From a virus: a stretch of 60,679 nt of DNA. The notes under the pieces were generated by a model. The model was given only the letters and a program-made list of their open reading frames with translations. It searched no databases and was not told the DNA's origin. Of this stretch, positions 9,472-45,398 are shown piece by piece (positions within the stretch are counted from its first letter, which is position 1; every line of letters starts with the position of its first letter). The translations under genes and the position numbers were made by a program. The stretch covers positions 1-60,679 of IMG/VR virus record IMGVR_UViG_3300032214_001145; one strand, 5' to 3'.

Positions 9472-9472
9472 T

Positions 9473-10669: not shown

Positions 10670-11398
10670 ATGAAAAAAGTATTAATCGCCAGTGGATGTA
10701 GTTTCACAATGGAAAATTGGAATTGGCCAGCACATCTTGCTTCCGAAATTGATTTAAAATTAATCAATGTTGGTATGGCTAGTCAGGGTAATGGATTGAT
10801 ATCAAGAAAGTTAATTTATGCTGTAGAAACCGCGTTGAAAAAGTATTCTCCGGATGAAATTATGGTTGGGGTTATGTGGTCAGGCACAGATAGAAGTGAA
10901 TACCACACATATGATGGTTCTGATGTTATTCATTGGGGGTTTAAGATAATTGACCCCACTACTAAAAACCCCACTAATGTTGTGGATGGTTTATATAATT
11001 GGAGAATAATGAACCATCATTGGAAAAATAAAGAATCATTAAATTATTATAAAAACTACCATACTGCGGTTTATGGTATGGTTTCAACAATAGAACATGT
11101 ACTAAGAGTGCAGTGGTATCTAAAACAATTAGGTATTGATTATTTTATGACCACGTATATGAATATTTTTGATGATAACTATTTGATAGAAAACAAGGAG
11201 GTGGCCCATTTGTTTAAAATGGTGGACTTTAACACGTTTTTACCAATCAAAGGTTGTTATGAATGGGTAAAAGAGAACTATCCAGAACTTGGCCTACCAT
11301 CAAACGATAAAACAGCAACACATCCAACTAGTTTTGGCCATAAAAAATTCTCAGAAGAAGTTATAACAACCTATCTTAAAGAAAAAAAAATAATATGA
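10670..11398 (+). CDS. SGNH/GDSL-like hydrolase
   Basis: The 242-residue protein opens with a beta-strand and SGCSFTMEN, the nucleophile elbow of SGNH hydrolases (Ser11), followed by INVGMASQGNGLI, the block supplying the oxyanion-hole Gly and Asn. Near the C-terminus THPTSFGHKKF provides the catalytic His block, although the usual Asp three residues before the His is a Thr. Enzymes of this fold add or remove O-acetyl groups on sugars and phage family members commonly sit beside glycosyltransferases. No signal peptide is present, so it probably acts in the cytoplasm. Confidence 0.65.
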   Translation: MKKVLIASGCSFTMENWNWPAHLASEIDLKLINVGMASQGNGLISRKLIYAVETALKKYSPDEIMVGVMWSGTDRSEYHTYDGSDVIHWGFKIIDPTTKNPTNVVDGLYNWRIMNHHWKNKESLNYYKNYHTAVYGMVSTIEHVLRVQWYLKQLGIDYFMTTYMNIFDDNYLIENKEVAHLFKMVDFNTFLPIKGCYEWVKENYPELGLPSNDKTATHPTSFGHKKFSEEVITTYLKEKKII

Positions 11399-18753: not shown

Positions 18754-19497
18754 ATGAGAAAATTTTCAGAAAACAGTAATCTATATCTATTAGATCCTAT
18801 TCCAGTATGGAAAAGAAAAATAACAGCAGATGAGGTTGGCTGTTCATTAGAAGAATTTAATGAAAAGATTTTAAAAGTTGCTAGACAATACTATGATGAA
18901 TGGCAGCTAGAGGTTCCAGACGAGAGGCACTATAAAACAAAGTCTTTGTTACCCGAATCAGAATATGATAAAATGAATGAGAGAGATTTCTTTACTCAAG
19001 CAAATTACCCAGCTGTTGGTAAGTGGCATTTAGTCCCAACCAATAATTTCTTCAAAGTAGATGAACCGATTGTTAATCAGTTACGTGATATTATTATTAA
19101 TGATTACAAAACCGCGTTGACAGAGTACTTTGATTTTGAATATGAGGGTAAACAAACCAATAATGCTAATCACGTTATAGATGAAAGTTGGTTACAGTTT
19201 TATAAGAACGCAGATTACAAAGTTCTACACAATCATTTGAGATATGATTTAGATCCAACTGAACATAGAAATATTTGGGCCGGTGGTTATTACATTAGCG
19301 ACGGTAACCCAGACAAGTATCAACCATACAGTGGTAGATTTTCATTCAATACTAGAAATAAATCATATTTGGTTAAACCAGAGACGGGAATGATTATGTT
19401 GTGGCCAGGAGATATTCTACACGAGGTTCATCCATTCTATGGTGAGAAAGAAAGAATTTGTATTAATTTTAATTTAAGTACTCGTGAAGAAAAATAA
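18754..19497 (+). CDS. 2OG-Fe(II) oxygenase-like protein
   Basis: This 247-residue protein has the double-stranded beta-helix signature of Fe(II)/2-oxoglutarate dioxygenases: YKVLHNHLRYD (candidate metal His159 or His161), GGYYIS, then GMIMLWPGDILHEVHPF (His223 or His226) and ERICINFNLS with Arg234 to bind 2-oxoglutarate. The metal-binding part resembles the TIGR02466 phage/marine group, where HxH replaces HxD. The likely reaction is hydroxylation of a protein residue, sugar or lipid. The 3' end overlaps the following GTG-initiated gene by 14 nt. Confidence 0.75.
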   Translation: MRKFSENSNLYLLDPIPVWKRKITADEVGCSLEEFNEKILKVARQYYDEWQLEVPDERHYKTKSLLPESEYDKMNERDFFTQANYPAVGKWHLVPTNNFFKVDEPIVNQLRDIIINDYKTALTEYFDFEYEGKQTNNANHVIDESWLQFYKNADYKVLHNHLRYDLDPTEHRNIWAGGYYISDGNPDKYQPYSGRFSFNTRNKSYLVKPETGMIMLWPGDILHEVHPFYGEKERICINFNLSTREEK

Positions 19498-21213: not shown

Positions 21214-21242
21214 TTGACTTTTTGTTTAATTTAAGGTATATT
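21214..21242 (+). promoter_or_regulatory. sigma70-like promoter TTGACT-N17-TATATT
   Basis: TTGACT at 21214-21219 and TATATT at 21237-21242 are separated by exactly 17 nt, placed after a terminator and before the APS-kinase-like gene. The expected transcript start, about 7 nt after the -10, coincides with the ATG at 21249, so the mRNA may be leaderless. The same spacing and hexamers recur at 38.69, 42.94, 44.88 and 51.46 kb. Confidence 0.75.
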
Positions 21243-21248
21243 AGGGAT

Positions 21249-21683
21249 ATGATATATTGGTTTACAGGTCAGCCTGGGGCTGGCAAAACAACTTTAGCAA
21301 AATACCTAGTGGAGCATTTCCCAAAAGATAATGTTGTCCACATTGATGGCGATGATCTAAGAGATATCTTTAAAAATAAAGACTACTCTGAATCTGGTAG
21401 AAGAAGAAACATTCAAAGAGCACAAGACATTGCTCAATTTATGCACAGTAAGGGTTATAATGTGATAGTTTCTCTCGTCTCCCCTTATTTAGATCAGAGA
21501 GAATTATTTAAATTTAATACATCGGTTATTGAAATCTACGTTCATACAACTGAAGATCGTGGTAGAGAAGGGTTCCACGTGGAAAACTACGAACAACCAC
21601 AATCTAATTTTATCGATATTGATACTACATCAACAAATGAGACAGAATCATATTACGAATTATTAAAAAAACTAAAATTATGA
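21249..21683 (+). CDS. cysC: adenylylsulfate (APS) kinase-like protein
   Basis: APS kinase phosphorylates adenylylsulfate to PAPS, the universal sulfate donor. This 144-residue protein has the P-loop GQPGAGKT (residues 7-14), HIDGDDLRDIF, the family's DGDxxR motif, SGRRRNIQRAQDIAQFM, and VIVSLVSPYLDQRE, all in CysC order. Bacterial enzymes are usually near 200 residues. Here the region after the SPxxxxR segment is shortened, so the lid is reduced. The ATG at 21249 is preferred over an upstream TTG because the latter lies inside the promoter. It overlaps the next gene by ATGA. Two sulfotransferase-like genes lie downstream. Confidence 0.8.
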   Translation: MIYWFTGQPGAGKTTLAKYLVEHFPKDNVVHIDGDDLRDIFKNKDYSESGRRRNIQRAQDIAQFMHSKGYNVIVSLVSPYLDQRELFKFNTSVIEIYVHTTEDRGREGFHVENYEQPQSNFIDIDTTSTNETESYYELLKKLKL

Positions 21684-22090
21684 GTAAAAAGTACGCCTTA
21701 TACATCGGAAGATGGCAAAACTGGCATAAAGGTCATGAATGGTTAATTAACCAACAATTAGAAAAGGGTAAAGATGTGTGGGTAGCAATTAGAAACGTAC
21801 CAACAGATGAAAACAACCCTAAAACAGCACAACAAGTTATGATTGATCTATCTGAAGAACCATTCTTTAGAGAAAATTCACAAAGAATACAGATATCAAT
21901 TATACCAGATATTGAATCTGTTAATTACGGTCGAGGTGTGGGGTACGAAGTTATTTACCACGAGCCACCTAAAGAAATTGAAAAAATAAGTGGAACTGCA
22001 ATTAGAAAAAAATATATTGATTCTAATGGGGATTCAATTGTATATAATATTGAAAAAAATGATAGTACAGAGGAAGAGACACATAGCTAA
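21680..22090 (+). CDS. HxGH nucleotidyltransferase (cytidylyltransferase-like)
   Basis: A 136-residue protein with YALYIGRWQNWHKGHEWLI, where His16-x-Gly-His19 is the nucleotide-binding HxGH motif of the nucleotidyltransferase superfamily, and ISGTAIRKKY near the C-terminus, matching ISxTxxR. Family members transfer AMP or CMP to a phosphate-bearing substrate, for example NMN, phosphopantetheine or glycerol phosphate. Its close coupling to an APS kinase raises the possibility of sulfate or sugar-phosphate activation, but ATP sulfurylase has different motifs, so this is only a suggestion. Confidence 0.7.
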   Translation: MSKKYALYIGRWQNWHKGHEWLINQQLEKGKDVWVAIRNVPTDENNPKTAQQVMIDLSEEPFFRENSQRIQISIIPDIESVNYGRGVGYEVIYHEPPKEIEKISGTAIRKKYIDSNGDSIVYNIEKNDSTEEETHS

Positions 22091-22268
22091 AACAATCTCA
22101 TATAGAGTAATAAGCACAATGATCGGGTTTATTATTATGTGGTGGGTAAGCGGGTCAATTAAAGTTGGTGCGGCTTTTGGTGTTGCAGAATTAGTTTATA
22201 AACCAATCCAATATTATTTACACGAAAGAATTTGGTACAAGTGGATTAAGTACGGTTTAAAAAAATAA
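22059..22268 (+). CDS. DUF2061-type small membrane protein
   Basis: The start chosen is the ATG at 22059 (69 residues); longer options overlap the previous gene by up to 100 nt. The product has AKTISYRVISTMIGFIIMWW, a membrane helix, a second hydrophobic segment (KVGAAFGVAELVYKPI) and the ending YYLHERIWYKWIKYG. The KT-start and YYxHERxW end are characteristic of DUF2061. In Bacteroidota, DUF2061 proteins are often coded with or fused to sulfate-assimilation genes, as I recall, which fits the adjacent cysC. Confidence 0.75.
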   Translation: MIVQRKRHIAKTISYRVISTMIGFIIMWWVSGSIKVGAAFGVAELVYKPIQYYLHERIWYKWIKYGLKK

Positions 22269-22274: not shown

Positions 22275-22790
22275 ATGATTTCAATCGATATAAATAGTGA
22301 AGTGCTAAATGATAATGATATGGAATTATTACAAAAAAAATGTGATAATTTTATCCCATCTCAATCACCAACATTAGATAAAGATAATATAAATTTTTAT
22401 TTTAGAGAATATATAGATTTAAAAGATCCTATAATGCATAATATTGTTATGGGATTAGAATCGTATATTAAAACTAAATTGTACACTAATTTAGAATTAA
22501 AATCAATGTGGATTAATAAAATTGATATTAACTCTAATAAAGATGATAATTTTCATAAAGATATCTCTCCATGTTCGTTAATATTATATTTAAATGATGA
22601 TTATATCGGGGGGGAGTTAGAATATATTAATGATACTAATAATAGAATGAAAATTACCCCACAAAAAAAATTAGTGGTTATTATGAATAATCAGTTAGAA
22701 CATAGAGTTCTACCTATTACTAGCGGAGTAAGATATAGTTTAGTGGCATTTTTTGGTTTTATGTATAATCAAACTAAAAGTATAATTTAA
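22275..22790 (+). CDS. 2OG-Fe(II) oxygenase (P4H-like)
   Basis: A 171-residue dioxygenase with the full iron facial triad: FHKDISPC gives His94 and Asp96, LEHRVLPI gives His143, and GVRYSLVAFF gives Arg153 for 2-oxoglutarate. LNDDYIGGELEY between them is the usual strand pair. This is the minimal prolyl-4-hydroxylase-like fold common in phages, where it may hydroxylate virion or host proteins. It begins 6 nt after the DUF2061 gene. Confidence 0.85.
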   Translation: MISIDINSEVLNDNDMELLQKKCDNFIPSQSPTLDKDNINFYFREYIDLKDPIMHNIVMGLESYIKTKLYTNLELKSMWINKIDINSNKDDNFHKDISPCSLILYLNDDYIGGELEYINDTNNRMKITPQKKLVVIMNNQLEHRVLPITSGVRYSLVAFFGFMYNQTKSII

Positions 22791-22793
22791 AGC

Positions 22794-23432
22794 ATGGAAA
22801 AAATATTTTTTGATGACGCCACTTACATTTGGAAAACCAAATTGAATTACATAAGTGATAAATCGTCTTTTTTAAAAGAAGCATACGCTCTTATAGAATC
22901 CCAGCCTAAAGTTAAGTCAGATGGATTTGGATATAAAAGAGAATGGAACGAACATTTAAATTTTATTGGTGACATTAATGTTGAAACAAAATTAGACCAG
23001 ATTTTTAAAATCGGTATCAATAAATGCAAAGAAATTTATAACGAAAAAAATATAAATTACAATAAAATTAATACTGACTCTTGGATTAATGTTGTTCGAT
23101 CAAAAGATCCAGTACAAGAGAATTTTCACAATGGTAAAAAATTTCATACACATACCGAAATTAATAAAGGAAACAAACAATTTATTCCACACTATACGTA
23201 TGTTTATTATATTCAAATGCCAGATGTAATGAATGGTGATGATGGTGTATTATGTTTTTTAGGTGAAAATAAGAAAGAATACTTCATCAAACCAGAAGAA
23301 GACGATTTAATTATTATGGAGGCGCATGTCCCACACACACCAAATAGTGCTCCTAATTCAACAATTGATAGAATCGTTATGGCGGGAAATGTTGGATTTG
23401 ATTTTATTAAGAAGGAAAAGTCGTTAATATAA
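22794..23432 (+). CDS. 2OG-Fe(II) oxygenase-like protein (HxH type)
   Basis: The 212-residue protein carries KKFHTHTEINKG (candidate metal ligands His118/His120), YVYYIQMP, a DDLIIMEAHVPHTPNSAP block (His178 and His181) and IDRIVMAGNVGFDF with Arg193 in the 2-oxoglutarate position. This order matches Fe(II)/2OG dioxygenases of the TIGR02466-like group, as also seen at 18754-19497. The metal ligands are less certain than in the neighbouring copies. The gene ends TAATG into a sulfotransferase gene. Confidence 0.65.
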   Translation: MEKIFFDDATYIWKTKLNYISDKSSFLKEAYALIESQPKVKSDGFGYKREWNEHLNFIGDINVETKLDQIFKIGINKCKEIYNEKNINYNKINTDSWINVVRSKDPVQENFHNGKKFHTHTEINKGNKQFIPHYTYVYYIQMPDVMNGDDGVLCFLGENKKEYFIKPEEDDLIIMEAHVPHTPNSAPNSTIDRIVMAGNVGFDFIKKEKSLI

Positions 23433-24193
23433 TGTTAGTAGATAATAATTTTATATATGTGAATTTACCAAGATGTGGATCAACATCATTTCACTATTCA
23501 TGTATATTACATGATTTAGAAATAAAAAATCTAAATTCAGAATGGGGGAAAATAAACTCTAAAATTAATTTCAAAAATATAGACGAAAAGGATATAATGC
23601 AACTAATTACACACGGGCACGAGGAGTTACCATTACTTAGAGAAAAGTTTGGATTTCAGTATCCTATAATTGCTGTTAAAAGGGATAGGCACGATACTTT
23701 TTATTCGTTATATAAACACATTATTTTTGATTTGAAAAGAGCGAATGCGCACAAGGTTTATGATTTTTTTAAAAATATAAGTTTAGATGAATTATTTTTT
23801 TTTAAAACAGAAGATTTACACTCTAATGAGAATAGACTTAACATAATAAACGATTTCTTATTAAAAAAAGAATTTATTAAAAATCGTGCTAAACCATCTA
23901 AACTTATGGACTTATATTCCGAAGAATATATTGTAAATGTAATTAATATATTAATAACTCCATCATCATATTGGCACAATCACGATAAGGATATTATTTG
24001 GTTTGATATTAAAGAATTAAACCTTATGGAAAAATGGGTTTCGAATAAAATTGGGAAAGAATTTAATCTAAAACAAGTTAATTCTAGCCAACATATAGAG
24101 TGTTCTCTAAAACCAGATCAAAATTTCAAAGAAAGGTACAATAGTATTTATGATTTCTATGATATACCAAAAACTAATAAGACACTAATATGA
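23432..24193 (+). CDS. sulfotransferase-like protein 1
   Basis: A 253-residue protein with NLPRCGSTSF at residues 11-20, corresponding to the 5'-phosphosulfate-binding loop of PAPS-dependent sulfotransferases, and IIAVKRDRHDTFYSLYKH near residues 83-101, corresponding to the 3'-phosphate-binding block (Arg plus Ser). The reaction would move sulfate from PAPS to a hydroxyl on a glycan or protein. With the APS kinase 2 kb upstream, donor synthesis and use are encoded together. Flanking junctions (TAATG, ATGA) indicate coupling. Confidence 0.7.
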   Translation: MLVDNNFIYVNLPRCGSTSFHYSCILHDLEIKNLNSEWGKINSKINFKNIDEKDIMQLITHGHEELPLLREKFGFQYPIIAVKRDRHDTFYSLYKHIIFDLKRANAHKVYDFFKNISLDELFFFKTEDLHSNENRLNIINDFLLKKEFIKNRAKPSKLMDLYSEEYIVNVINILITPSSYWHNHDKDIIWFDIKELNLMEKWVSNKIGKEFNLKQVNSSQHIECSLKPDQNFKERYNSIYDFYDIPKTNKTLI

Positions 24194-24194
24194 T
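24176..24194 (+). repeat. gene-junction direct repeat, copy 1
   Basis: The 19-nt sequence AATAAGACACTAATATGAT spans the stop of the sulfotransferase gene and the start of the next oxygenase gene. A copy with one mismatch ends the zinc-ribbon gene at 25097-25115. Both encode the C-terminal residues NKTL followed by Ile or Met. Confidence 0.7.
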
Positions 24195-24810
24195 AAAAAA
24201 TTACTACATATTTGATGATGTGATATCAACTGAAGAACAAAAAATTATAAACGATTATGTAAATCGTTCTAATATAGAATGGGTATCAATGAAAAATATT
24301 ACTGGTGAATATGGAGGAAAAAGCGAAACTCGCAATTTTCCAGCAAAAGTTCATCCAAAACCCAAATGTAAAGACGAAGAAATTAACCACATAATTGATA
24401 GTATAGAATTGAATGTTGCAAAAAAATTAAATTTAGAATTTATTAAAAATTATAGATGGAAAATTAATTGGACTTCACCAATTGGTGAGTATGATCCTAT
24501 GGATTTACTACATTACGATGATGCTACCGAACACATTGCTATGGTTTATTATATTAACAATTCAACCGGAGACACCTGCATTTATAATAACATTAATGGA
24601 AATAACGCTGAAACATTCCAAGAAAATTTTAATAATGTGGATTATGGTTCATACTCTCTATTGACTAGTGTATCTCCTAAAATGGGTAGGTGTCTTGTAT
24701 TTGATGGGAAATTAGCACATCTTGGAAATTATCCATCAAATGGTGATAGGTTTATTATAAATTTTAATTTTGTAGCAAAATTAAAAAACTTACGAAACTC
24801 ATTGATATAA
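24190..24810 (+). CDS. 2OG-Fe(II) oxygenase
   Basis: This 206-residue protein shows a clear triad: LLHYDDATEH (His108, Asp110), DGKLAHLGNYP (His177) and GDRFIINFNF (Arg187). HIAMVYYINNSTGDTCIYN is the strand after the first ligands. It resembles other phage-borne 2OG oxygenases of about 200 residues. It starts with ATGA over the previous stop and is one of five such enzymes in the window, each with a different N-terminal part, suggesting distinct substrates. Confidence 0.85.
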   Translation: MIKNYYIFDDVISTEEQKIINDYVNRSNIEWVSMKNITGEYGGKSETRNFPAKVHPKPKCKDEEINHIIDSIELNVAKKLNLEFIKNYRWKINWTSPIGEYDPMDLLHYDDATEHIAMVYYINNSTGDTCIYNNINGNNAETFQENFNNVDYGSYSLLTSVSPKMGRCLVFDGKLAHLGNYPSNGDRFIINFNFVAKLKNLRNSLI

Positions 24811-24811
24811 C

Positions 24812-25114
24812 ATGATTAAAATACCTACAATTAATTATAAAGAAATATTTGATGCTTGGATAATTTCGATTAATCCAACTCCAAATCAGGTGGAATTGGC
24901 CAAATTAAGACTCGAAGTATGTTTAGGGTGCGAATTTAGAAAGGAAACAATAAAGGGTTTAAAATGGAGCGCTTTTTGTAATATGTGCGGATGTCCTTTA
25001 AATAAAAAAGTGTTCTCAACAAACTACAACGCCTGCCCAGCAAAAAAATGGGAAAATACCGATTTTGGGTATATAACCCCAAAAGAAGATAAAAAAAATA
25101 AGACACTAATGTGA
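24812..25114 (+). CDS. small zinc-ribbon protein
   Basis: A 100-residue protein with CLGCEFR at about 32-35, CNMCGCPLNKK near 55, and CPAKKWENTD near 74. The paired CxxC motifs plus a terminal Cys are typical of a small zinc-binding ribbon seen in phage genomes and next to glycosyltransferases, of unknown function. It follows the oxygenase stop by 1 nt and ends in the same 19-nt junction sequence found at 24176. Confidence 0.65.
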   Translation: MIKIPTINYKEIFDAWIISINPTPNQVELAKLRLEVCLGCEFRKETIKGLKWSAFCNMCGCPLNKKVFSTNYNACPAKKWENTDFGYITPKEDKKNKTLM

Positions 25115-25115
25115 T
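25097..25115 (+). repeat. gene-junction direct repeat, copy 2
   Basis: AATAAGACACTAATGTGAT matches 18 of 19 positions with the junction at 24176-24194. It covers the end of the zinc-ribbon gene. Here no gene begins in the repeat, so this may be a scar of a moved or lost cassette. Confidence 0.6.
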
Positions 25116-25168
25116 GTTTTGATTAAAATCATTAATTCACCTATTTATATATAAACGGATTAGAAAAT

Positions 25169-26644
25169 ATGAAAGCAACGATAATTGGTAGTGATTTACT
25201 ACAAAAAGATGGCTCAGTTAAAATTATTGAAATAAACACTAATACCTGCATCTCCAACGATGGTGCAAACTTATTAGATTATACGGCGTTATTCAGTGTA
25301 CTAATGGATAATGATATTACAGAATTTCATTATATATGGACTGAAGGAAAGGCGTATTTACCTTTGGATCAACCACATATTTTTCGTAATATATTACAAA
25401 CTAAATGTTCGGAAAACAACATATCTTTTAACGAACATATTGTACCGGCTAATTCAGTTACGGTACCCTATATAGAAGATGCTTCTCATAAATTTATTTT
25501 AAGACAAGCATTTGATACCACAGCATTAGTGGATGATTTATATTGTGCTGACAAATTTGAGTTTTTTAATTTAATGAGCGGATCTACATATTCCCCAAAA
25601 ACATATTTTACATCTGAAGAATTAAATTTAAATACTTTAGATGAAGTAGATTATACCACAACCAAGCCAAATCTTTTGATAAAATCAAAACAGGCTTCGT
25701 ATGATGTTATGACATATCCAGCAATATATAATGTTACTGATTCAAGCCAACTATCTGAAGTTATTGGTTCCGTTGAAAGTGGTCATTTAGTTCAAGAATT
25801 TATATTTTCTGAGGATAATGTAGTGGATGGAAGATATTCAACAATAAGAAGTATTGATATTATATATGGGCCTAATTTAGATATTATTAACATGGGAGGA
25901 TATACTCATTCTACTAGATTACCACTTACATTTAGTGAGGATGAATTTATTTCTGGTACTAGAAAGTTTAATCAAAAAACTAGACATAAATATATTACAA
26001 AATCTATTAGGAATCGAGCAGAAGGAAACGACTACCATACAGATGACGATTCAAATATTTTAAAATATGATGGTACTTTAGTAGATGTTGACACTATTCA
26101 ATTAGGTGACTATATTCGTTCTATTAACTTTACCGATACAAATGAAAACGAAGCGGCCACATTTACAAATAATATTGCCACATTTGGATGGACCGGTACA
26201 CTACCCCAATTAAACAATACATTGACACCAGTGCAATCGGAATTAGTGGGTATGGTATCAACATCGATAGAAATGGTAATGGTAAAAGTAACTTTAGCGG
26301 ATGGACGAACTTGGACAGAAGCACCAAATTCAACTTTTTTTATTGAAGAAAAAGACTCCACCGAAACCAGATGGGAGCTAATAAATAATTGTTATGTTGG
26401 TGATAAAATAGTTGTAACTGATTCAAATACAACCGAATTAAGGGCTGTAGAAATTACCAATTTAGAGATGGTATACGAAGCCAAAACAATATATACTTTA
26501 GATTTTGCACCATCAGATTTATTCTTAGTGGATGTTGGGGATAGCGATTTTGCAGTAATGCACAATGGTTGTTGGTGTGGTTGGAGTTACTGTGGTAATT
26601 GGTGTTATCAAAATTATTGTCCAACCTGTTGGGGGGAAAAATAA
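25169..26644 (+). CDS. ATP-grasp-like protein fused to Hint-like domain with Cys/Trp-rich tail
   Basis: This 491-residue protein has three parts. Residues ~1-275 look ATP-grasp-like (KIIEINTNTCI, PNLLIKSKQ, HLVQEFIFSE, RSIDIIYGP). Residues ~290-466 look like a Hint (intein/hedgehog) fold: ILKYDGTLVDVDTIQLGDYI, VKVTLADGRTWTEAP, WELINNCYVGDKIVV, and TIYTLDFAPSDLFLV ending in FAVMHN (His465-Asn466), the intein C-terminal motif. An N-terminal Cys/Ser nucleophile and the block-B His are not visible, so splicing is unlikely, but Asn-dependent C-terminal cleavage is possible. It would release a 25-residue peptide with six Cys and four Trp (GCWCGWSYCGNWCY onward). Function is unknown. Confidence 0.65.
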   Translation: MKATIIGSDLLQKDGSVKIIEINTNTCISNDGANLLDYTALFSVLMDNDITEFHYIWTEGKAYLPLDQPHIFRNILQTKCSENNISFNEHIVPANSVTVPYIEDASHKFILRQAFDTTALVDDLYCADKFEFFNLMSGSTYSPKTYFTSEELNLNTLDEVDYTTTKPNLLIKSKQASYDVMTYPAIYNVTDSSQLSEVIGSVESGHLVQEFIFSEDNVVDGRYSTIRSIDIIYGPNLDIINMGGYTHSTRLPLTFSEDEFISGTRKFNQKTRHKYITKSIRNRAEGNDYHTDDDSNILKYDGTLVDVDTIQLGDYIRSINFTDTNENEAATFTNNIATFGWTGTLPQLNNTLTPVQSELVGMVSTSIEMVMVKVTLADGRTWTEAPNSTFFIEEKDSTETRWELINNCYVGDKIVVTDSNTTELRAVEITNLEMVYEAKTIYTLDFAPSDLFLVDVGDSDFAVMHNGCWCGWSYCGNWCYQNYCPTCWGEK

Positions 26645-26667
26645 ACTATATTGTTCTAACCCCAAAG

Positions 26668-26675
26668 TATAAATA
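26668..26675 (+). promoter_or_regulatory. TATAAATA box before small gene (weak candidate)
   Basis: TATAAATA, identical to the T4 late-promoter -10 consensus, lies 21 nt before the ATG at 26696. In DNA this AT-rich such an octamer is expected several times by chance, so the assignment is tentative. Confidence 0.25.
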
Positions 26676-26695
26676 ATTCAAATAAAAATAAAATT

Positions 26696-26842
26696 ATGGC
26701 AAAAGTAGAAAAAATAAAAATACAAAGACCCGCACAGGTAGTTAAAGTAATTACTGGTCCATTATCTAATGATTTAAAAACAAAAGTAGCGACAGCATTC
26801 GAAGCAGTTGTAACCGCAATTAAAGTTAAACATTTAGAGTAA
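26696..26842 (+). CDS. 48-residue protein of unknown function
   Basis: A complete short ORF (starts MAKVEKIKIQRPAQVV, ends AVVTAIKVKHLE) between the Hint-like protein gene and a radical SAM gene. It has an A-rich leader, no cysteine and no hydrophobic segment. A Gly-Pro (ITGPLSND) separates a basic first half from a helical second half. Size and position invite comparison with RiPP precursors, but nothing in the sequence proves this. Confidence 0.55.
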   Translation: MAKVEKIKIQRPAQVVKVITGPLSNDLKTKVATAFEAVVTAIKVKHLE

Positions 26843-26882
26843 TAGTATACACTAAGTATTTGATTTCATTGATTAAATTATT

Positions 26883-27932
26883 ATGAAATCTAAAATAAAT
26901 TTAAAGAATTATTTTTGTAGTGTTCCCTTTAATTCATTAGAAATACACAATAATGTGTGTTTTGTTTGTTGCCCATCTTGGTTACCAAATAAAATTGAAC
27001 TTAGTGAAATACCACTAAAAGATATATACAATAGTGAACCAATAGTTGACATAAGAAATTCAATATTGGATGGCTCTTTTAAGTATTGTGATAAAGAACT
27101 CTGTCCCTATTTAAGTAAATTGGTAAACTACGGAGTTACATCTGGCCCAATCACCTTAAAATCTGATTCAAATTACGATACACCAATCATAAAAAATAAT
27201 ACCCCGGATTACTTAGTCATGAATTTTGATAGGACATGCAATTACAAATGCCCGTCATGTAGGGTAGATTTAATTGTTGAAAATAGTCAGGGGATAAAAC
27301 GTGTTGAAAAAACGATTGAGGAAATTGACAATTATTACTCGGAACATGTAAAAATTTTATACATCACAGGTTCTGGAGATCCATTTGTTTCGGTGGGGTT
27401 TAGAAATTATCTTAGGAATTTTAATCCCAAAAAATATCCAAACCTAAAATCAATACACCTACATACTAACGCATCGATGTGGAATAAAGAAATGTGGAAT
27501 TCAATGCCCAATATCCACAAATACGTTCACACCTGTGAAATTAGTATAGATGCGGGGACAAAGGACACTTATGAAAATAAAACAAGAATAGGTGGTAATT
27601 GGGATAATTTATTAAATAATCTTAAATTCATAAGCACGTTACCGATAAATGTGAAAACGTCATTTGTTGTTCAGGATTCTAACTATATGGAAATGGAAGA
27701 ATTTTATAACTTGATGTATTCTATTTTTGGTAAGAAAGTAAATGTATTTTTTGGTAAGATCACTAATTGGGGCACATTTTCGGATGCTGAATTTAAACTA
27801 AAGCAGGTATGGGATTCCGAACATCCAGAACATATGTTCTTTAAAAAAGAATTTAATAAAATATGGAAAAATACAAACTTATTCCATAATTTATATGAGT
27901 TTATTGACACCACACATAAATCCTTGATATGA
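26883..27932 (+). CDS. radical SAM protein with N-terminal SPASM/twitch-like cysteines
   Basis: A 349-residue protein with CNYKCPSC at C119/C123/C126 and, in place of GGE, ILYITGSGDPFVS. The N-terminal FCSVPFNSLEIHNNVCFVCCPSW and YCDKELCPYL form an auxiliary-cluster-like segment ahead of the core, as in the proteins at 5.5-8.1 kb. The C-terminus lacks a further Cys cluster. It follows the 48-residue gene by 40 nt and overlaps the next oxygenase by ATGA. The substrate could be one of the neighbouring small products or a virion protein. Confidence 0.82.
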   Translation: MKSKINLKNYFCSVPFNSLEIHNNVCFVCCPSWLPNKIELSEIPLKDIYNSEPIVDIRNSILDGSFKYCDKELCPYLSKLVNYGVTSGPITLKSDSNYDTPIIKNNTPDYLVMNFDRTCNYKCPSCRVDLIVENSQGIKRVEKTIEEIDNYYSEHVKILYITGSGDPFVSVGFRNYLRNFNPKKYPNLKSIHLHTNASMWNKEMWNSMPNIHKYVHTCEISIDAGTKDTYENKTRIGGNWDNLLNNLKFISTLPINVKTSFVVQDSNYMEMEEFYNLMYSIFGKKVNVFFGKITNWGTFSDAEFKLKQVWDSEHPEHMFFKKEFNKIWKNTNLFHNLYEFIDTTHKSLI

Positions 27933-28429
27933 TATTAGAACAAAAAATATTATTTAGTAAAGATGAGTGTGAATCTATAATATCATATAACAACACCGAT
28001 ATTACAAATTGGACGTCGGGTGATAGAAAATATAATTCACAGCCAATCAATTACTCGTTAGAAACAAAATGGCTATTTGATAAGTTGAAGGATTTTGTAG
28101 AAAAGGAAGCAACAATTAGAGTTAGAACAATAAAAAAAACAATACATTTCCATAAATTCACAACAGGTGATTGGTTCGGAAAACATAACGACATTAGAGA
28201 CAATAGAGTATATGCTGTCGGAGTACTTTTAAACGATGACTTTGAAGGTGGAGATTTTAAATTACACGATCCAAATAAAATAACTTTAAATAAAATAGTT
28301 GGAAATACCTATTTATTTGATGTAAGAATATACCACGAAATAACACCAATTTTAGAAGGTAATAGGTATTCTTTATTATGGTTTTTGCAAAATGAACACA
28401 TAAAAATAGAAACAAATAAATTAATATGA
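27929..28429 (+). CDS. 2OG-Fe(II) oxygenase (P4H-like)
   Basis: A 166-residue minimal dioxygenase: WFGKHNDIRD supplies His86 and Asp88, RIYHEITPI supplies His136 and EGNRYSLLWFL supplies Arg146. LLNDDFEGGDFKLHD is the intervening strand pair, close to that of the protein at 22275-22790. It begins and ends with ATGA overlaps, so it is coupled to the radical SAM gene before it and the SGNH gene after it. Confidence 0.87.
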   Translation: MILEQKILFSKDECESIISYNNTDITNWTSGDRKYNSQPINYSLETKWLFDKLKDFVEKEATIRVRTIKKTIHFHKFTTGDWFGKHNDIRDNRVYAVGVLLNDDFEGGDFKLHDPNKITLNKIVGNTYLFDVRIYHEITPILEGNRYSLLWFLQNEHIKIETNKLI

Positions 28430-29232
28430 ATCCATTAGAATATTGGAACCCCGAAACTTTTGAGATATCGTCGTTCCGATTTAAATTAGACGAAAGAAAA
28501 GGAAAGATATATAGAACATCCGGAAGTGATAATACCGGTTTATGTGTGTATACCTATAATGAATTAGGATTTAGAGGTGATAGTATTAAAAAAGAAGGGT
28601 TTAAAGTTATGTCATTTGGGTGCTCAAATACCGAAGGTGTCGCGGTTAATGATAATGAAACTTGGCCGGCTAGATTTACATCGTTAATACCAAACGGAGT
28701 TAATTTTAATTTTGGTACGGGCGGTAGAAGTAATGATTTTATTGTTAGATGTTTATTAACATATTATGATTTAATTAAACCGGATTTAGTTTTTATAATG
28801 TATACATCACCCCATCGAAGAGAAATATATACAAAAGATGGTGGAGTAGAACCATTTATGGCAACACATCAATGGGGATATTTAAGAGAAACCGATGATG
28901 GTGTTAAAACACAAGAATATTTAACTTATTTACAAAATGATAATGAGGATTTTATAAATTGGTATAAAAATCATTTATTAATAAAATATTTTTTAGAATC
29001 AAAGAAATGTAATTGGTTATGGAATGGTAGTCTTGGCATACCAATGGATTATAATGAATTTAATAGATTCGATGGTGATTACGGAAAGTATATAGATTTT
29101 GGTGTGGATAATGGGCACCCAGGTCCAAAACATAATAAAGATTATGCAACTAAATTATTCAACCATGTATATAAAAACTTCAACGAATACCTACCATCAG
29201 GAGTGATAGGTCTCCAAAGTAAAATAATTTAA
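28426..29232 (+). CDS. SGNH hydrolase-like protein
   Basis: The 268-residue protein has VMSFGCSNTEG with a candidate nucleophile Ser67, FGTGGRSNDFIVR as the Gly/Asn oxyanion block, and DNGHPGPKHN near the C-terminus giving the His (with Asp three residues before). The first 50 residues precede the fold and may be a binding arm. Possible roles are sugar O-acetyl transfer or de-acetylation. The overlap with the oxygenase (ATGA) suggests coordinated expression. Confidence 0.65.
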   Translation: MNPLEYWNPETFEISSFRFKLDERKGKIYRTSGSDNTGLCVYTYNELGFRGDSIKKEGFKVMSFGCSNTEGVAVNDNETWPARFTSLIPNGVNFNFGTGGRSNDFIVRCLLTYYDLIKPDLVFIMYTSPHRREIYTKDGGVEPFMATHQWGYLRETDDGVKTQEYLTYLQNDNEDFINWYKNHLLIKYFLESKKCNWLWNGSLGIPMDYNEFNRFDGDYGKYIDFGVDNGHPGPKHNKDYATKLFNHVYKNFNEYLPSGVIGLQSKII

Positions 29233-29253
29233 AATAAAACACTATTTAATATA

Positions 29254-29931
29254 ATGGCAAGAATATGGACATTTGGTGATAGTTTTACAGCATCATTTAA
29301 ACCCGAACCGGAAATAGCAAAAATTGTCGATTGGCGGAATGAATATTGTGAATTCAAAGGGTATATCCCTGGAGTTTATGGTGAAGTTATTTCACAAATA
29401 TTAGATATCCCGCTAATGAACATGGGGATAGGTGGATGTGATAATTATACTATTTTAGACGCAATAATTGATTCATGTGACATGATAAAAGAAGATGATA
29501 TAATTATTGTTGGCTGGTCAAGCGTTTTGAGATCTAGGTTAGTAAATATAAATGATGTTTTTACACCAATTATACCCAACTTACCCGAAAAAAATCTAGC
29601 AGAATTTTTTGGTGTTAAACAATCAACACTTGACGATATATTGGTAAACAGATCACATGTTCTTTATATAAAAGAATTAAATAAATTTATTAAATTGGTG
29701 AATCATTTGTTTCCCAAAAACAAAATTATTCAATGGTCACCATTTTATAGCTGGGCAAATAATGAGGGGGTAAACGTTCAAAAAATGAACATAGATATAG
29801 TGGGAATAAATCGTGAAACTAAAAATGTTGTTAGAGATGGCCATTTTTCGGAGCAAACACATAAAAACTTGGCACATAAAATGATAGAGATTTTAAACAA
29901 AGGGGGTAAAATAACTAATAAGATGATATGA
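29254..29931 (+). CDS. SGNH/GDSL hydrolase-like protein
   Basis: A 225-residue protein with the classic WTFGDSFTAS elbow (Ser10), NMGIGGCDNYTIL (Gly and Asn blocks) and VRDGHFSEQTHKNLAHKM with the Asp-x-His near the C-terminus. All four SGNH blocks are present. It is the second of two adjacent SGNH genes but shares little beyond the motifs with its neighbour. It overlaps the following sulfotransferase gene by four bases. Confidence 0.75.
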   Translation: MARIWTFGDSFTASFKPEPEIAKIVDWRNEYCEFKGYIPGVYGEVISQILDIPLMNMGIGGCDNYTILDAIIDSCDMIKEDDIIIVGWSSVLRSRLVNINDVFTPIIPNLPEKNLAEFFGVKQSTLDDILVNRSHVLYIKELNKFIKLVNHLFPKNKIIQWSPFYSWANNEGVNVQKMNIDIVGINRETKNVVRDGHFSEQTHKNLAHKMIEILNKGGKITNKMI

Positions 29932-30500
29932 TTTATACAATAATTGCTGAGGGTAGAAGTGGTAGTCAGAATTTATTACACTGGCTTTCAATTGCTTTAC
30001 CAAACTTTGAAGCAATTCATGAACCTTTTAACGCAGCAGAAACAAGATATACACAAGATATTAGTGGAAACGATCTTTCATGGATAAGTCCCGGTAAAAA
30101 TTATGTAATAAAAGAACTTTGGCATACTAAGAGAAATTTTACTCCTCTAATTGAAAAAAGTGATAAAATAATCTGTTTATACCGAGAAAATTGGTTCGAA
30201 CAGGTTAGTTCTTTATTATATGCGTTTAAAACAAACAAATGGCACTCAAAATATAGTGTTGAAAGATTAAAAGAAACCATTTCTGAAGAGGAGATATTAG
30301 ATTATTACGAAAATATACAGAAAGGTATTAAAGAAAAATTCCAAATATTCATCAAAGAACAGGGTTTAAAGTCACTGACTTATGAAGATCTTTATCAAGG
30401 ACAGGGCATTTATGATATTAAAGACCATTTTAATATTGAAACCACCCATATCTTCCCATTTAGCGGGCGTTACTTAACTAAAGACAATCCGCTAATATAA
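29928..30500 (+). CDS. sulfotransferase-like protein 2
   Basis: A 190-residue P-loop-like protein: IIAEGRSGSQNLLHWL at residues 5-20 matches the phosphosulfate-binding loop, and KIICLYRENWFEQVSSLL near residue 85 matches the 3'-phosphate block (Arg plus Ser). It is shorter than the protein at 23432-24193 and has the layout of compact marine-phage and bacterial sulfotransferases. PAPS from the phage CysC-like enzyme is the expected donor. It is the last gene before the fibre genes, so fibre modification is one possibility. Confidence 0.68.
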   Translation: MIYTIIAEGRSGSQNLLHWLSIALPNFEAIHEPFNAAETRYTQDISGNDLSWISPGKNYVIKELWHTKRNFTPLIEKSDKIICLYRENWFEQVSSLLYAFKTNKWHSKYSVERLKETISEEEILDYYENIQKGIKEKFQIFIKEQGLKSLTYEDLYQGQGIYDIKDHFNIETTHIFPFSGRYLTKDNPLI

Positions 30501-30554: not shown

Positions 30555-33500
30555 ATGAATATATTTGATCCACACATATCGGGCTCCCTATCAGTATCTG
30601 GTTCGGGGGAAATTTCAGGCGATTTAACGGTACTTGGTACGTTGTTTGCAACAATTTCCGGTACCTCACAAAACGCCGTTTCAGCTTCACATGCTGCAAT
30701 GTATCTATTAACCTCTAGTTTCCAGACATTTACTGGTTCATATACTACTGGGGCGTTTACCGGGTCATTTAAGGGCGATGGTGCTGGTTTATACAATATC
30801 CCAGCTAGTGGGGTTACGGGACTTAATTTAACAAGAATTGCTGATGGTAGTGCGACTGCGTCTATTTCAAGTGCAGACGGTTTAAGAATTAATACAAATA
30901 CCGAAATAACTGGTACATTAAAAGTTAACAACTTTAACTTAGGTGGTAATGATATTGTTGAAATTACCCTTACAGATGGTGGTGGAAAATATTATGTTAA
31001 CGGTGTTAAAAATCCAAGGTTATCGTTTATTAGAGGATTTAAATATAGATTCTATTTTGATAATAACAATGTTCACCCATTACTTTTTTCTTTAACCAAC
31101 GATGGGGAACATAATGGTGGAACAGTATATACTACAGGGGTAACAACTGGGTCAACTCCATCATTTTACGTTCAGATCGATGTTACAGATGCTACTGCAT
31201 CAACTTTATATTATTTCTGTGACCATCACGTTGGAATGGGTAATTCAATTTCAGTATATTCTGATTTTTTAAATGCACAATCTAGTGTTAACCTTACTAA
31301 CGTAGACACGGGAATGTTTGCCACAACCGGATCAAACAACTTTACAAATATTCAAAGAACAAGTGGCTCATTAGTTGTAACCGGATCTGTAGATGTCACA
31401 GGGTCAATTAATCTTTTTGGTACCGCTAATATAAGTGGGTCAATAATGTTAAATGGTCAAGCAATTGGTACTGGAAAGTTAGATGAAACAACATTTAATT
31501 CATATACCTCTTCAAATGATGGTAGGTTATTTGCAATTGAAAATTCTACATCGTCATATAACACATTTACCAGCTCAATAGATACCAGAATTAAGAATGA
31601 GATGAACGAAGAAAACGTTATCTCTGGATCAATTCAAGTTATATTAACTGGAACCACAGGTTATTCGACATTCAGTTCAAGTGTGTCAACAAGTGTTGGT
31701 GCATTAAGTTCTAGTATTGAAACAACCACATCCGGCCTTAGTTCATCTATAGGTTCTTTAAGTTCATCAGTTGCAACTACAACTAGTGGTTTAACTTTAT
31801 CTATAAGTTCTTTAAGTTCATCGGTAGCTACAACTACATCTGGGCTAAGTTCTAGTATTGGAACAATATCTTCATCATTTAGTTCTACTAATGATACTCA
31901 AAATGGTAGACTAGGCACTATTGAAACTTCTACAGGTAGTTTAAATACATTTACTAGTTCAATAGACACCACAATTAAAAACAAATTAAACACTGAATCA
32001 GTAATATCTGGTAGTATTCAAGTTAATATTACTGGTACAACAGGATATAGTACATTTAGCTCAAGCGTGTCAACAAGTATCGGAGCATTAAGTTCTAGTA
32101 TTGAAACAACCACATCTGGATTAAGTTCAAGTGTTGGTAGTATATCATCTTCACTTAGTTCTACTAACGATACACAAAACAATAGATTAGGTAGTATCGA
32201 AACTTCAACTGGTAGTTTAAATTTATTCACCAGTTCAATTGATACAACAATTAAAAATAAACTTAATACAGAGTCAGTAGTATCTGGAAGTTCACAAATT
32301 TTAATTACCGGAACAACTGGTTATTCTACATTTAGTTCTAGTATATCAACAAGTATCGGCGCGTTAAGTTCCAGTGTTGGTACCGCTATTAATGGTTTAA
32401 GCTCTTCTGTTGCAACAACAACAAACGATTTAAGTTCAAGTATTGCTTTGACAACATCTGGGTTAACATTGTCTGTGAGTTCTTTAAGTTCTTCGGTGGC
32501 AACAACCACATCTGGATTAAATTCAAGTATCGGTAGTTTATCTTCTTCTGTTGCAACAGTAAATTTAAATCAAAATAATAGATTAGACTCCATTGAAGGA
32601 AAAACAGGTAGTTATGCAACTACTGGATCAAACATATTCCAAGGTAATCAAACAATTACTGGATCATTATATATTTCACAGGATTTAATAGTCGCTGGGT
32701 CGTCGTCAATACAACACATTAGTTCTTCTATAGTTAATATTGCCGATAACATCATTACAGTAAATGCTCAAAACCCAGCAGTAAGATTCGGTGGCCTTGC
32801 TGTTATCGATAGTGGATCTTCACCACAAGTATCCGGCTCGTTATTATTTGACGCCACCGAAAACGAATGGATATTTGTTCATCAAAATCAAACAGCGGTA
32901 ACCTCGGCTTTATTAATAATGGGGCCAGAAACATACAATGATATTGGTAATGAAATTCATTTAACAAATAACAGATTAGTTAAATCAACTATTGATGAAC
33001 ACGTTGGTGATAGTAATATCACCGATACTGGAACTAAGGTTTCAATCAATTCAAATACCGAAGTAACCGGAACACTAAAAGTAACGGGAGTTATCGGTAG
33101 CCCAACTATAACGGCAATTGAAACATCCACATCAAGTTTAAATACATTTACCTCATCGTTATTAACTGCAATAGAATTAACGGGATCAAACTTAACCGTT
33201 AGGGGTGACTTTTTAGTTAAAGGTACAACAACAAACGTTAATACAGCAACGCTTGATGTTGATAATAATTTAATAAATTTAAATGGTAGTGGCGCGACAT
33301 TTGCTGGATTAAGAGTTAAAGATACTACAGCACCAAGCCAAATATCGGGATCTTTATTATGGGATTCAGCAAATGATTATTGGATTGCTGGTCAATTAGG
33401 GTCAGAACAAAGAATAGTTAGAGAAACAGAATTTAATACAGCTGTTACAAGAATTGGTAACGTTGAAACCTCAACAGGTTCATTAAATTCATTCACATCT

Positions 33501-35282
33501 TCTATTAATACAACAATTAAAAACAAATTAAATAGTGACGGTGTTATAAGTGGTTCCGTTCAAGTGAATCATAACGCAACAACAAATTATGATGCAAATC
33601 AACACATTGATCACACGGCTATTTCAATATCTGCTGGTAGTGGTTTATCTGGTGGAGGTACAATAGCAGCAACAAGAACATTAACATTAGATACTGGATC
33701 TTCACATTTTACTAATGGAGTTAAAGCCAAAATGAACACAGATGGTGTTATATCTGGATCATCACAAGTACTATCAGGTACAGGCATATGGTCTGGATCT
33801 GCACAGTTACCATCAGGCGTGGTGTCAGGTTCATCTCAAGTATTAAGTGGAACTGGTATATGGTCCGGATCGGCACAACTACCTAGTGGGGTGGTATCTG
33901 GATCTTCACAAGTGTTAGCTGGGACAACGATTCACTCTGGTGCATTCTTTAATGGTATTAGTGTTGTGTCGGGCTCTGGGCAAATTTCATTCAATGGTAT
34001 AACAGATAAACCAACATTGGTTTCTGGCTCATCGCAAATTACTTTCTTAAGTATTAGTAGTATACCGTCTGGATTAGTTTCAGGTAGTTCACAAGTATTA
34101 TCGGGAACAGGTATATGGTCTGGTTCTGCTCAATTACCAAGTGGTGTTGTGTCGGGGTCTTCACAAATAACTTACGGTTCAATATCAGGAATACCGGGTG
34201 GTATTGTATCAGGTTCAAGTCAAATAACTTTTGGATCAATAAGTAGCATACCGTCAGGATTAGTATCAGGTTCAAGTCAAATAACGTTATCATCTACCAC
34301 TGGATATGGTTCGGTTTTAAATCAGGCGGTTTTAACAACAAGTGCTCCAACATTTGATCAAGTTATTACTAGTAACAATGGTAACGGAACAAACTTCCGT
34401 ATAGGAGATGACGTTTGGATTGGTGATATAAACGCAGCTAATACATTTAGAATACAAGGTGTACAAAATGCGGCTAATGCATATATAGTATTTGGTAATG
34501 GTGATGCAACTGCTCTTGGTAGAGCAAGCACAGGTGCATTAACATATGGTGGTAACACGGTTTATCATGCGGGTAATTTAACCAACCTTAATCAACTTAC
34601 TAACGGTCCCGGTTACATAACAGGTATTAACTCAAGCGCTGTAACAACGGCATTGGGTTACACTCCATATAACGCAACCAACCCAAATGGATATATCACT
34701 GGTATATCGTTTGCTAACGTCTCATCTAAACCTACAACAATTAGTGGTTATGGAATAACAGACGCAATCACAACGGGCAATATTGGTTCACAATCAGTAA
34801 GTTATGCGTCAACTGCAGGGTCTGCCGATCAAATTGATGGCATTGGAATCAGAAACACAAACACGGGCGCAGTTGCTGCCAATACATTAGATTCAAATGG
34901 TTTTACATATGTTACCGATGTTGATGGTAGTAGTAGTAACTTAACTGGTAACTCAACAGATGGCGCATTGTATTCTCAAATATATAGTTCAAGCTGGCAA
35001 CACCAAATATATGGTGATTATAGAACTGGTATCATGTATGTTAGAGGTAAGAATAGTGGTACTTGGCAATCTTGGAAGAGAGTTGCATTAAGTAGTGCAA
35101 CAACGTTCTCAAGTGTTACTAGTTTAACATTTACACATAACTTAGGTACTGCAAATTTAACTGCGCAGGTGTTTGATACAAACGGAGACATGTTTTTCCC
35201 TTCTAATATAAGAATATCATCAACACAAGTGATAGTAACTTTTGCATCATCTAGATCAGGAAGACTTGTAGTTACAGGATAA
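30555..35282 (+). CDS. long repetitive tail fibre protein with cupredoxin-like domain
   Basis: A 1575-residue virion fibre. The N-terminus (SGSLSVSGSGEISGDLTVLG) is the shape seen in phage tail-associated beta-structures. Residues ~135-240 resemble a cupredoxin: His174 (HPLLFS), then C222-x2-H225-x2-M228 in YFCDHHVGMG, the amicyanin spacing. Ser/Thr-rich repeats follow (~370-680, LSSSVATTTSGL type), then at least two GTL/DNNLINLNGSG fibre modules and nine VSGSSQ repeats (~1065-1245). The C-terminus (HAGNLTNLNQLTNG, GALYSQIYSS, WQSWKRV, SLTFTHNLG) is a typical tail-fibre end. It begins the structural operon. Confidence 0.88.
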   Translation: MNIFDPHISGSLSVSGSGEISGDLTVLGTLFATISGTSQNAVSASHAAMYLLTSSFQTFTGSYTTGAFTGSFKGDGAGLYNIPASGVTGLNLTRIADGSATASISSADGLRINTNTEITGTLKVNNFNLGGNDIVEITLTDGGGKYYVNGVKNPRLSFIRGFKYRFYFDNNNVHPLLFSLTNDGEHNGGTVYTTGVTTGSTPSFYVQIDVTDATASTLYYFCDHHVGMGNSISVYSDFLNAQSSVNLTNVDTGMFATTGSNNFTNIQRTSGSLVVTGSVDVTGSINLFGTANISGSIMLNGQAIGTGKLDETTFNSYTSSNDGRLFAIENSTSSYNTFTSSIDTRIKNEMNEENVISGSIQVILTGTTGYSTFSSSVSTSVGALSSSIETTTSGLSSSIGSLSSSVATTTSGLTLSISSLSSSVATTTSGLSSSIGTISSSFSSTNDTQNGRLGTIETSTGSLNTFTSSIDTTIKNKLNTESVISGSIQVNITGTTGYSTFSSSVSTSIGALSSSIETTTSGLSSSVGSISSSLSSTNDTQNNRLGSIETSTGSLNLFTSSIDTTIKNKLNTESVVSGSSQILITGTTGYSTFSSSISTSIGALSSSVGTAINGLSSSVATTTNDLSSSIALTTSGLTLSVSSLSSSVATTTSGLNSSIGSLSSSVATVNLNQNNRLDSIEGKTGSYATTGSNIFQGNQTITGSLYISQDLIVAGSSSIQHISSSIVNIADNIITVNAQNPAVRFGGLAVIDSGSSPQVSGSLLFDATENEWIFVHQNQTAVTSALLIMGPETYNDIGNEIHLTNNRLVKSTIDEHVGDSNITDTGTKVSINSNTEVTGTLKVTGVIGSPTITAIETSTSSLNTFTSSLLTAIELTGSNLTVRGDFLVKGTTTNVNTATLDVDNNLINLNGSGATFAGLRVKDTTAPSQISGSLLWDSANDYWIAGQLGSEQRIVRETEFNTAVTRIGNVETSTGSLNSFTSSINTTIKNKLNSDGVISGSVQVNHNATTNYDANQHIDHTAISISAGSGLSGGGTIAATRTLTLDTGSSHFTNGVKAKMNTDGVISGSSQVLSGTGIWSGSAQLPSGVVSGSSQVLSGTGIWSGSAQLPSGVVSGSSQVLAGTTIHSGAFFNGISVVSGSGQISFNGITDKPTLVSGSSQITFLSISSIPSGLVSGSSQVLSGTGIWSGSAQLPSGVVSGSSQITYGSISGIPGGIVSGSSQITFGSISSIPSGLVSGSSQITLSSTTGYGSVLNQAVLTTSAPTFDQVITSNNGNGTNFRIGDDVWIGDINAANTFRIQGVQNAANAYIVFGNGDATALGRASTGALTYGGNTVYHAGNLTNLNQLTNGPGYITGINSSAVTTALGYTPYNATNPNGYITGISFANVSSKPTTISGYGITDAITTGNIGSQSVSYASTAGSADQIDGIGIRNTNTGAVAANTLDSNGFTYVTDVDGSSSNLTGNSTDGALYSQIYSSSWQHQIYGDYRTGIMYVRGKNSGTWQSWKRVALSSATTFSSVTSLTFTHNLGTANLTAQVFDTNGDMFFPSNIRISSTQVIVTFASSRSGRLVVTG
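31660..32590 (+). repeat. in-frame degenerate repeats in fibre gene (LSSSxATTTSGL type)
   Basis: About 300 codons encode short Ser/Thr-rich units such as LSSSVATTTSGL and GALSSSIETTTSGL, plus a longer unit of ~75-80 residues (beginning VISGSIQVxxTGTTGYSTFSS) present three times. The spacing suggests an elongated trimeric coiled-coil or beta-helical shaft. Synonymous differences between units show the repeats are old or maintained by selection. Confidence 0.8.
33747..34286 (+). repeat. nine in-frame VSGSSQ repeats in fibre gene
   Basis: The hexapeptide VSGSSQ (with I/L/V before and V/I after, one copy SGSGQ) recurs nine times every ~14-25 residues, alternating with LSGTGIWSGSAQLPSG or ITFGSISSIPSG segments. 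The regularity indicates a repetitive shaft. Neighbouring enzymes for glycosylation or sulfation make the many exposed Ser/Thr of interest as targets. Confidence 0.8.
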
Positions 35283-44930: not shown

Positions 44931-45398
44931 ATGGAGAAAATTACATTAAAATTAGGAGACATTCTACAATTAGAAAGCGAAATAAACGGATACACTGATC
45001 CACAAAGCGGTGAAATTGTTTACGAGGGATTTACTAAACAAAACCTATCAATCATTTTGAAGTATGAACTAAGTGATTTCTCAGCAACACTTAAAACTGA
45101 GAGGACTAAGGTTGATTCATTAAGAGATGAATTGATTAAAAAATATGGAGAAGATGATGGTAAAGGTGGTATTCTAGTAAAAATGTACAATGAGGTTAAA
45201 GACGAAGAAGGTAACATTACCGGAAAAGTAATTAACCCACAGTATGTTGAATTTGATAACGAATATGGTACACTTTTAAGTCGTGAAATCGAAATTGAAT
45301 ATCCAGAAATCACTAAACAAGATCTAAAAGACGCGGGTAAAACCAAAGACAAATATCTGGTACTGTTTAAATTAATTAAAAAAGAGGGAGCTAAATAA
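44931..45398 (+). CDS. unknown phage protein
   Basis: A 155-residue acidic protein with its own promoter. KITLKLGDILQLESEINGY opens a beta-rich N-terminus, followed by a helical segment (FSATLKTERTKVDSLRDEL), KYGEDDGKGGILVKMYNEV, and VEFDNEYGTLLSREIEI. The Glu/Lys-rich compact make-up resembles small phage proteins of unknown role, often structural or host-interaction factors. No named family is recognised. The stop codon lies inside the bidirectional terminator. Confidence 0.6.
   Translation: MEKITLKLGDILQLESEINGYTDPQSGEIVYEGFTKQNLSIILKYELSDFSATLKTERTKVDSLRDELIKKYGEDDGKGGILVKMYNEVKDEEGNITGKVINPQYVEFDNEYGTLLSREIEIEYPEITKQDLKDAGKTKDKYLVLFKLIKKEGAK

Follow-up and report, generated by a model that had tools for sequence, protein, structure and literature searches.

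The window analyzed here is the whole of the IMG/VR virus record IMGVR_UViG_3300032214_001145 (60,679 bases), and the gene in question, at positions 25169–26644, encodes a protein of 491 amino acids (aa) composed of an ATP-grasp-like domain, a Hint domain and a tail rich in Cys, Trp and Tyr. Together with neighboring enzyme genes whose products share a C-terminal tag, this gene looks like a previously undescribed viral route to a modified peptide. The interpretation that we favor, with a probability of about 50%, is a phage pathway resembling those of ribosomally synthesized and post-translationally modified peptides (RiPPs), in which the tagged enzymes would modify a peptide released by the Hint domain from the 491-aa precursor. 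Its basis is formed by sequence conservation, predicted folds, gene order and the statistics of the tag. Conservation was counted on non-redundant sets of 57 homologues (53–94% identical to the window protein), 66 tails and 67 loci. All the window features given below with both coordinates and a role in the cluster lie on the + strand.

In the proposed mechanism, the ATP-grasp-like domain would act as a leader or docking module, and perhaps as a ligase too. The Hint domain would have lost N-terminal cleavage while retaining the cyclisation of Asn466, and a cut after this residue would free a peptide of ~25–33 residues that contains 3–4 Cys pairs, along with Trp and Tyr and a single Lys near the C-terminus. 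Tailoring, before or after release, would be carried out by the neighboring enzymes: a halogenase would act on Trp and sulfotransferases on hydroxyl groups, for instance those of Tyr, with 2-oxoglutarate (2OG) oxygenases taking part as well. The enzymes would be gathered by the binding of their shared C-terminal -K-[T/S]-[L/I]-[I/L] tag to a common receptor, the likeliest being the ATP-grasp-like domain, because related ATP-grasp ligases bind protein C-termini, or else a 48-aa protein encoded downstream. If true, this would be a viral ribosomal-peptide pathway with a precursor carrying its own release domain, and the shared tetrapeptide would be an addressing code marking the participating enzymes.

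The tag, taken as a C-terminal -[K/N]-[T/S]-[L/I]-[I/L], is present in all ten accessory genes located at 22275–30500 of the window (10/10; P about 1e-16 at a background of 7/284). This background comes from 284 open reading frames (ORFs) of the same phages, of which 2.5% end in the strict form and 6% in a loose form, [LIM][ILM]. The loose form occurs in 98% of the 2OG-Fe(II) oxygenases of family a and 93% of those of family b, in every member of the sulfotransferase-like families ST1 and ST2, of the halogenases and of the radical S-adenosylmethionine (SAM) proteins (100% each), in 96% of the SGNH proteins and in 93% of the members of a 100-aa family, while a 268-aa family is mixed (45%). The tag is missing from the APS (adenosine 5′-phosphosulfate) kinase, the nucleotidyltransferase, the DUF2061 protein, the 48-aa protein and the tail fibers, and also from the homologous halogenases and oxygenases encoded by HTVC008M, S-H38 and P-SSM2, three cultured phages that lack the 491-aa gene. 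Only two other ORFs of the window end in a tag-like way, 45394–46500 (RELI) and 10670–11398 (KKII); the second encodes a DUF6071 protein homologous to the product of the SGNH gene of the cluster. We rejected the idea that ATGA overlaps between genes generate the tag: an L/I ending is seen also in 314 genes that have no such overlap, and their Leu codons are used in the same proportions as genome-wide. The tag provides a simple rule for finding more members in metagenomes.

The distribution of the tag along the genome bears on a different interpretation, in which the enzymes decorate tail fibers, glycans or small molecules, and the 491-aa gene is merely linked to them in a late operon beside fiber genes. 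Tail-fiber genes indeed start at 30555, glycosyltransferase and radical SAM genes lie nearby, and glycans are possible substrates of sulfotransferases and 2OG oxygenases. However, the cluster is centered on the 491-aa gene, the tag frequency is highest within 3 kb on each side of it and near background past about 5 kb, and the 2OG gene at 18754–19497 and the radical SAM genes outside the cluster are untagged, so that we consider decoration of this kind quite unlikely.

Concerning the tail (residues 467–491, 26567–26641), which is the predicted released peptide, its sequence in the window protein is GCWCGWSYCGNWCYQNYCPTCWGEK. Translation of 25169–26644 reproduced what the first-pass annotation of this DNA, made from the sequence alone, had described: the FAVMHN motif followed by 25 residues with 6 Cys, 4 Trp and 3 Tyr. 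Conservation among the 57 homologues is complete for C468, C470 and C475, 98% for C484 and C487 and 96% for C479, and it argues that the pattern of the tail and the preceding HN did not arise by chance. The Cys spacing 2-5-4-5-3 is kept in 57/66 tails. Two additional residues, Cys471 and Cys480, were acquired jointly in seven tails belonging to three separate clades, and the altered spacing of one more tail (L029) fits a 471/480 pair replacing the 470/479 pair. The co-occurrence of Cys471 and Cys480 in separate clades is evidence for paired cysteines, which might form disulfides or share a metal site. Every tail (66/66) contains exactly one Lys region, inside the last five residues, and no earlier Lys. 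The first-pass annotation had suggested a search for homologues with variable tails; the plan of the tail turned out to be conserved, and purifying selection acts on it (omega about 0.15, 314 pairs). Two other ideas about the tail were discarded. One was a hypervariable or swapped tail: the synonymous divergence seemed raised in close pairs, in a small sample, but codon identity at conserved residues was not clearly lower in the tail than elsewhere. The other was a lactam or lactone of the graspetide type, as the tail has no conserved acidic residues.

The Hint domain comprises residues 289–466 (26033–26566). Fold comparison with Foldseek agreed with the earlier suggestion of a Hint-like fold, as the 50 best matches listed in the PDB were all hedgehog, intein or bacterial intein-like (BIL) domains (E 2e-7 to 4e-4), the best being 1at0 (E 2e-7, TM 0.76 over the target). 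By its fold, the domain can thus be placed in the Hint superfamily. In addition, BLAST aligned the 491-aa family (E 4e-6) with a canonical phage Hint domain encoded at L264:7852-9510, in a record (G004) of the same phage group, which keeps Cys1, TxxH and HN (CVSTDT...TETHP...ISHN). The latter domain is inserted in a 553-aa structural-looking protein with a sugar-binding-like C-terminal part. The alignment places the invariant His290 of the 491-aa family at the Cys1 position, and profile comparison places S/C/A/T388 (Ser388 in the window protein) at that of the block-B His. The loss of the N-terminal nucleophile and the block-B His, noticed previously in the window protein, is therefore common to the whole family. 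On the other hand, H465 and N466 are invariant in the 57 homologues (FAVMHN spans residues 461–466 in the window protein), and the +1 residue following N466 is S, G, A, T or P in the same sequences, and Q or N in further members. These features differ from those of a splicing intein, with His290 at position 1, no block-B His, a +1 residue that may be G, A, P, Q or N, and HN alone kept; they differ also from A-type BIL domains in the block-A nucleophile, which is replaced by the invariant His290. A-type BIL domains are reported to undergo cleavage at HN without ligation (PMC7765530). As HN is invariant while the +1 residue varies, C-terminal cleavage without ligation would be expected, and keeping HN while losing both features behind the N-terminal acyl shift is the pattern expected for a Hint domain of the cleavage-only type.

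It could be argued, on the contrary, that no cleavage takes place, the degenerate Hint domain being a scaffold and the tail a module, stabilised by metal or disulfides, that stays permanently attached in an enzyme complex or virion part. This would be in line with the loss of Cys1 and the block-B His, and probably of the block-F His as well, and with a weak similarity to CPxCG zinc fingers in 3/57 members. Nevertheless, a dead Hint domain would not need HN, and H465-N466 is invariant amid varying flanks, so that we find the absence of cleavage doubtful.

The N-terminal domain (residues 1–288, 25169–26032) is ATP-grasp-like according to structure prediction, Foldseek and its invariant residues. 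AlphaFold2 modeled the full-length protein from 52 sequences with a moderate overall pLDDT (predicted local distance difference test) of 61, the Hint region being mostly about 70–84, and the N-domain alone with a mean of 85. The top Foldseek matches of the latter were GshA (3k1t, E 5.5e-4) and a D-Ala-D-Lac ligase (E 0.05), both ATP-grasp enzymes, in agreement with the first-pass assignment. Its invariant residues are D9, E21-I22-N23-T24-N25, K172, Q209-E210-F211, R227 and D230. The acidic EIN.N motif is found at residues 21–25, whereas in canonical ATP-grasp domains it is at the C-terminal end, and for this reason the domain appears to be circularly permuted. When the sequence was rotated to undo the permutation, RimK matches were obtained in 3/11 cases, at sub-threshold level only. 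At the sequence level, the 491-aa protein had no significant match in PDB, Pfam or PHROGs, whether the query was a single protein, the family profile or the de-permuted profile; the Hint and ATP-grasp-like assignments are supported by fold comparison.

The invariance of catalytic-type residues in this domain is compatible also with an ATP-driven trans-ligation, in which the ATP-grasp domain would activate the C-terminal carboxylates of proteins ending in -K-T-L-I, or that of the 48-aa protein, and couple to them the Hint-freed tail through its amine or its Lys. Proteins are extended at the C-terminus by certain ATP-grasp enzymes, for example RimK and tubulin-tyrosine ligase; moreover, the C-terminal tag is common to non-homologous proteins, the tail Lys is invariant, and the small 48-aa protein, a constant partner, has a conserved C-terminus. 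However, this partner has no tag, the ligase activity is putative, and the halogenase and sulfotransferases make better sense as peptide-modifying enzymes than as targets of tagging, and we judge such a ligation unlikely. A low probability is given as well to the broader alternative that the system consists either in ATP-driven trans-ligation of the Hint-freed peptide to the tagged enzymes or in enzyme assembly via one shared C-terminal docking tag. To our knowledge, neither of these organisations has a known precedent.

Returning to the favored RiPP-like pathway, the gene neighborhood contains co-localised tailoring-type enzymes, in line with the RiPP-like setting suggested earlier: 2OG oxygenases, sulfotransferases and the halogenase are conserved across the 67 loci. 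In the window, upstream of the 491-aa gene, there are 2OG-Fe(II) oxygenases of family a (22275–22790, tag KSII; family in 65/67 loci) and family b (22794–23432, KSLI; 57/67), the sulfotransferase-like ST1 (23432–24193, KTLI; 64/67), recognized by the motifs LPRC[AG]ST and R..R.YSLYKH plus a weak Sulfotransfer_2 match in 1/26 members, and another 2OG-Fe(II) oxygenase-like protein (24190–24810, NSLI). Directly before the 491-aa gene (60/67 loci) sits the gene for the 100-aa Cys-rich protein, Zn-ribbon-like with C..C/C..CGC/C (24812–25114, KTLM). Directly downstream, wherever the locus has sequence there, and in 13/13 records, comes the 48-aa gene, as a homologue or a visible RP..VIK start (26696–26842 in the window; consensus ..RPxxxIKxxxxPLSxxLKxKxxxAFQxVVxxIKxKHL). 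Its product is basic, ends in ..KHL[SGE] and is without known relatives. Farther downstream, the window contains a radical SAM protein (26883–27932, KSLI; Pfam E 1.4e-8), a second family a oxygenase (27929–28429, NKLI), the 268-aa protein (28426–29232, SKII), an SGNH/DUF6071-like protein (29254–29931, NKMI; 38 loci, the homologue L094 matching DUF6071) and the PAPS (3′-phosphoadenosine 5′-phosphosulfate)-sulfotransferase-like ST2 (29928–30500, NPLI; 60/67), with Sulfotransfer_3 matches in 7/26 members (best E 1.4e-4) and a structural match to NodH (E 6e-4). The first-pass annotation had placed a radical SAM enzyme some 240 nt downstream of the 491-aa gene as a possible modifier. The distance was right (239 nt), although the conserved 48-aa gene in between had been overlooked, and a key role is not borne out, since radical SAM genes are near only 24/67 loci. 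This gene is a variable accessory only, the constant partners being instead the 100-aa Cys-rich gene, the 48-aa gene, the 2OG-Fe oxygenases and the sulfotransferases.

A Trp halogenase is found in at least 42/67 loci (Pfam E 1e-89; PrnA and VirX1 among the PDB matches). Of 26 records examined, 13 carry it, once each, and in those for which both genes could be placed it adjoins the 491-aa gene. The remaining 13, one of them as long as 251 kb, have none, and the clade of the window itself has none either. Every locus with halogenase (42/42) has Pro or Cys at residue 471 of the tail; among the loci lacking it, 9/10 have Ser, Gly or Thr there. The link between both is suggestive only, because independent losses of the halogenase are few. 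For VirX1, the characterised viral Trp halogenase, the review text consulted mentions test substrates only. If the pathway is real, the tail would provide a viral Trp halogenase with a candidate substrate that can be put to the test.

Several considerations count against a RiPP-like pathway. Cleavage, the modifications, the receptor, and the role and bioactivity of the product are all steps that we infer. Block-F His assists Asn cyclisation in many inteins, and here it is apparently replaced by Asp450. The ATP-grasp-like domain keeps catalytic-type residues beyond the needs of docking alone. The ST1 assignment comes mainly from motifs, and no exporter was identified. The 471 link rests on at least two losses (the window clade and L063), with an exception, L053, that keeps Pro. 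Finally, marine T4-like phages without the 491-aa gene also carry Trp halogenases and 2OG oxygenases; no Trp/Cys-rich peptides were seen beside the halogenases of three cyanophage and pelagiphage genomes.

Among known systems, A-type BIL domains and C-cleaving mini-inteins are alike in Hint fold, invariant C-terminal His-Asn and variable +1 residue. The phage protein differs from them in the invariant His in place of the block-A Cys1, the lack of block-B His and a fixed architecture, with an ATP-grasp-like domain in front and a Cys-rich tail behind; moreover, it is encoded by a conserved single-copy phage gene, whereas BIL domains occur in hypervariable bacterial proteins. Borosins likewise have a core-like peptide C-terminal to a folded enzyme-like domain (PMC7878506), but this is a methyltransferase rather than ATP-grasp-like and Hint domains, and the phage system would have a predicted autocatalytic release and several separate enzymes sharing a C-terminal tag. 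Graspetides and other ATP-grasp peptide ligases also link an ATP-grasp-type fold to a small peptide; in the phage protein the domain is apparently permuted and fused to the peptide, and the tail has no conserved Asp/Glu acceptors. The clustered halogenase belongs to the same Trp_halogenase family as the viral enzymes related to PrnA, such as VirX1 of cyanophage Syn10, but it is tagged and tied to a Trp-rich peptide gene, while the three cyanophage/pelagiphage homologues examined are untagged.

Scanning IMG/VR with the window protein yielded 86 relatives, and with the family profile 135. The 491-aa gene is single-copy in each of 13 larger records. No match was found among 50,697 deposited phages, nor any bacterial or archaeal homologue in 84,980 prokaryote species (one genome per species); a search, run without positive control, of the nearest cultured phages by capsid found no homologue either. 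A gp23-type capsid gene scored above the family cut-off in 5/13 records searched, and below threshold in four more, the best matches being an uncultured phage record, Flavobacterium phage immuto and Microcystis phage Mel-JY01. On the strength of these capsid matches, the carriers would be large uncultured aquatic phages of the T4 superfamily, with hosts plausibly including Bacteroidota among others.

Flanking the tagged genes of the window, there is an APS kinase that could supply PAPS (21222–21683; Pfam APS_kinase E 4e-17; 23 loci), an HxGH nucleotidyltransferase-like protein recognized by motif only (21680–22090; 30 loci) and a DUF2061 membrane protein (22026–22268; homologue PF09834 E 2e-15; 33 loci). 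On the other side, 30555–35282 encodes a 1575-aa tail-fiber-like protein with many VSGSSQV/SGSAQL repeats. Outside the cluster, 1041–10666 encodes at least four more radical SAM proteins, none of which has the C-terminal tag and one of which contains a SPASM domain; next come genes of the DUF6734, NodU-like carbamoyltransferase and glycosyltransferase types.
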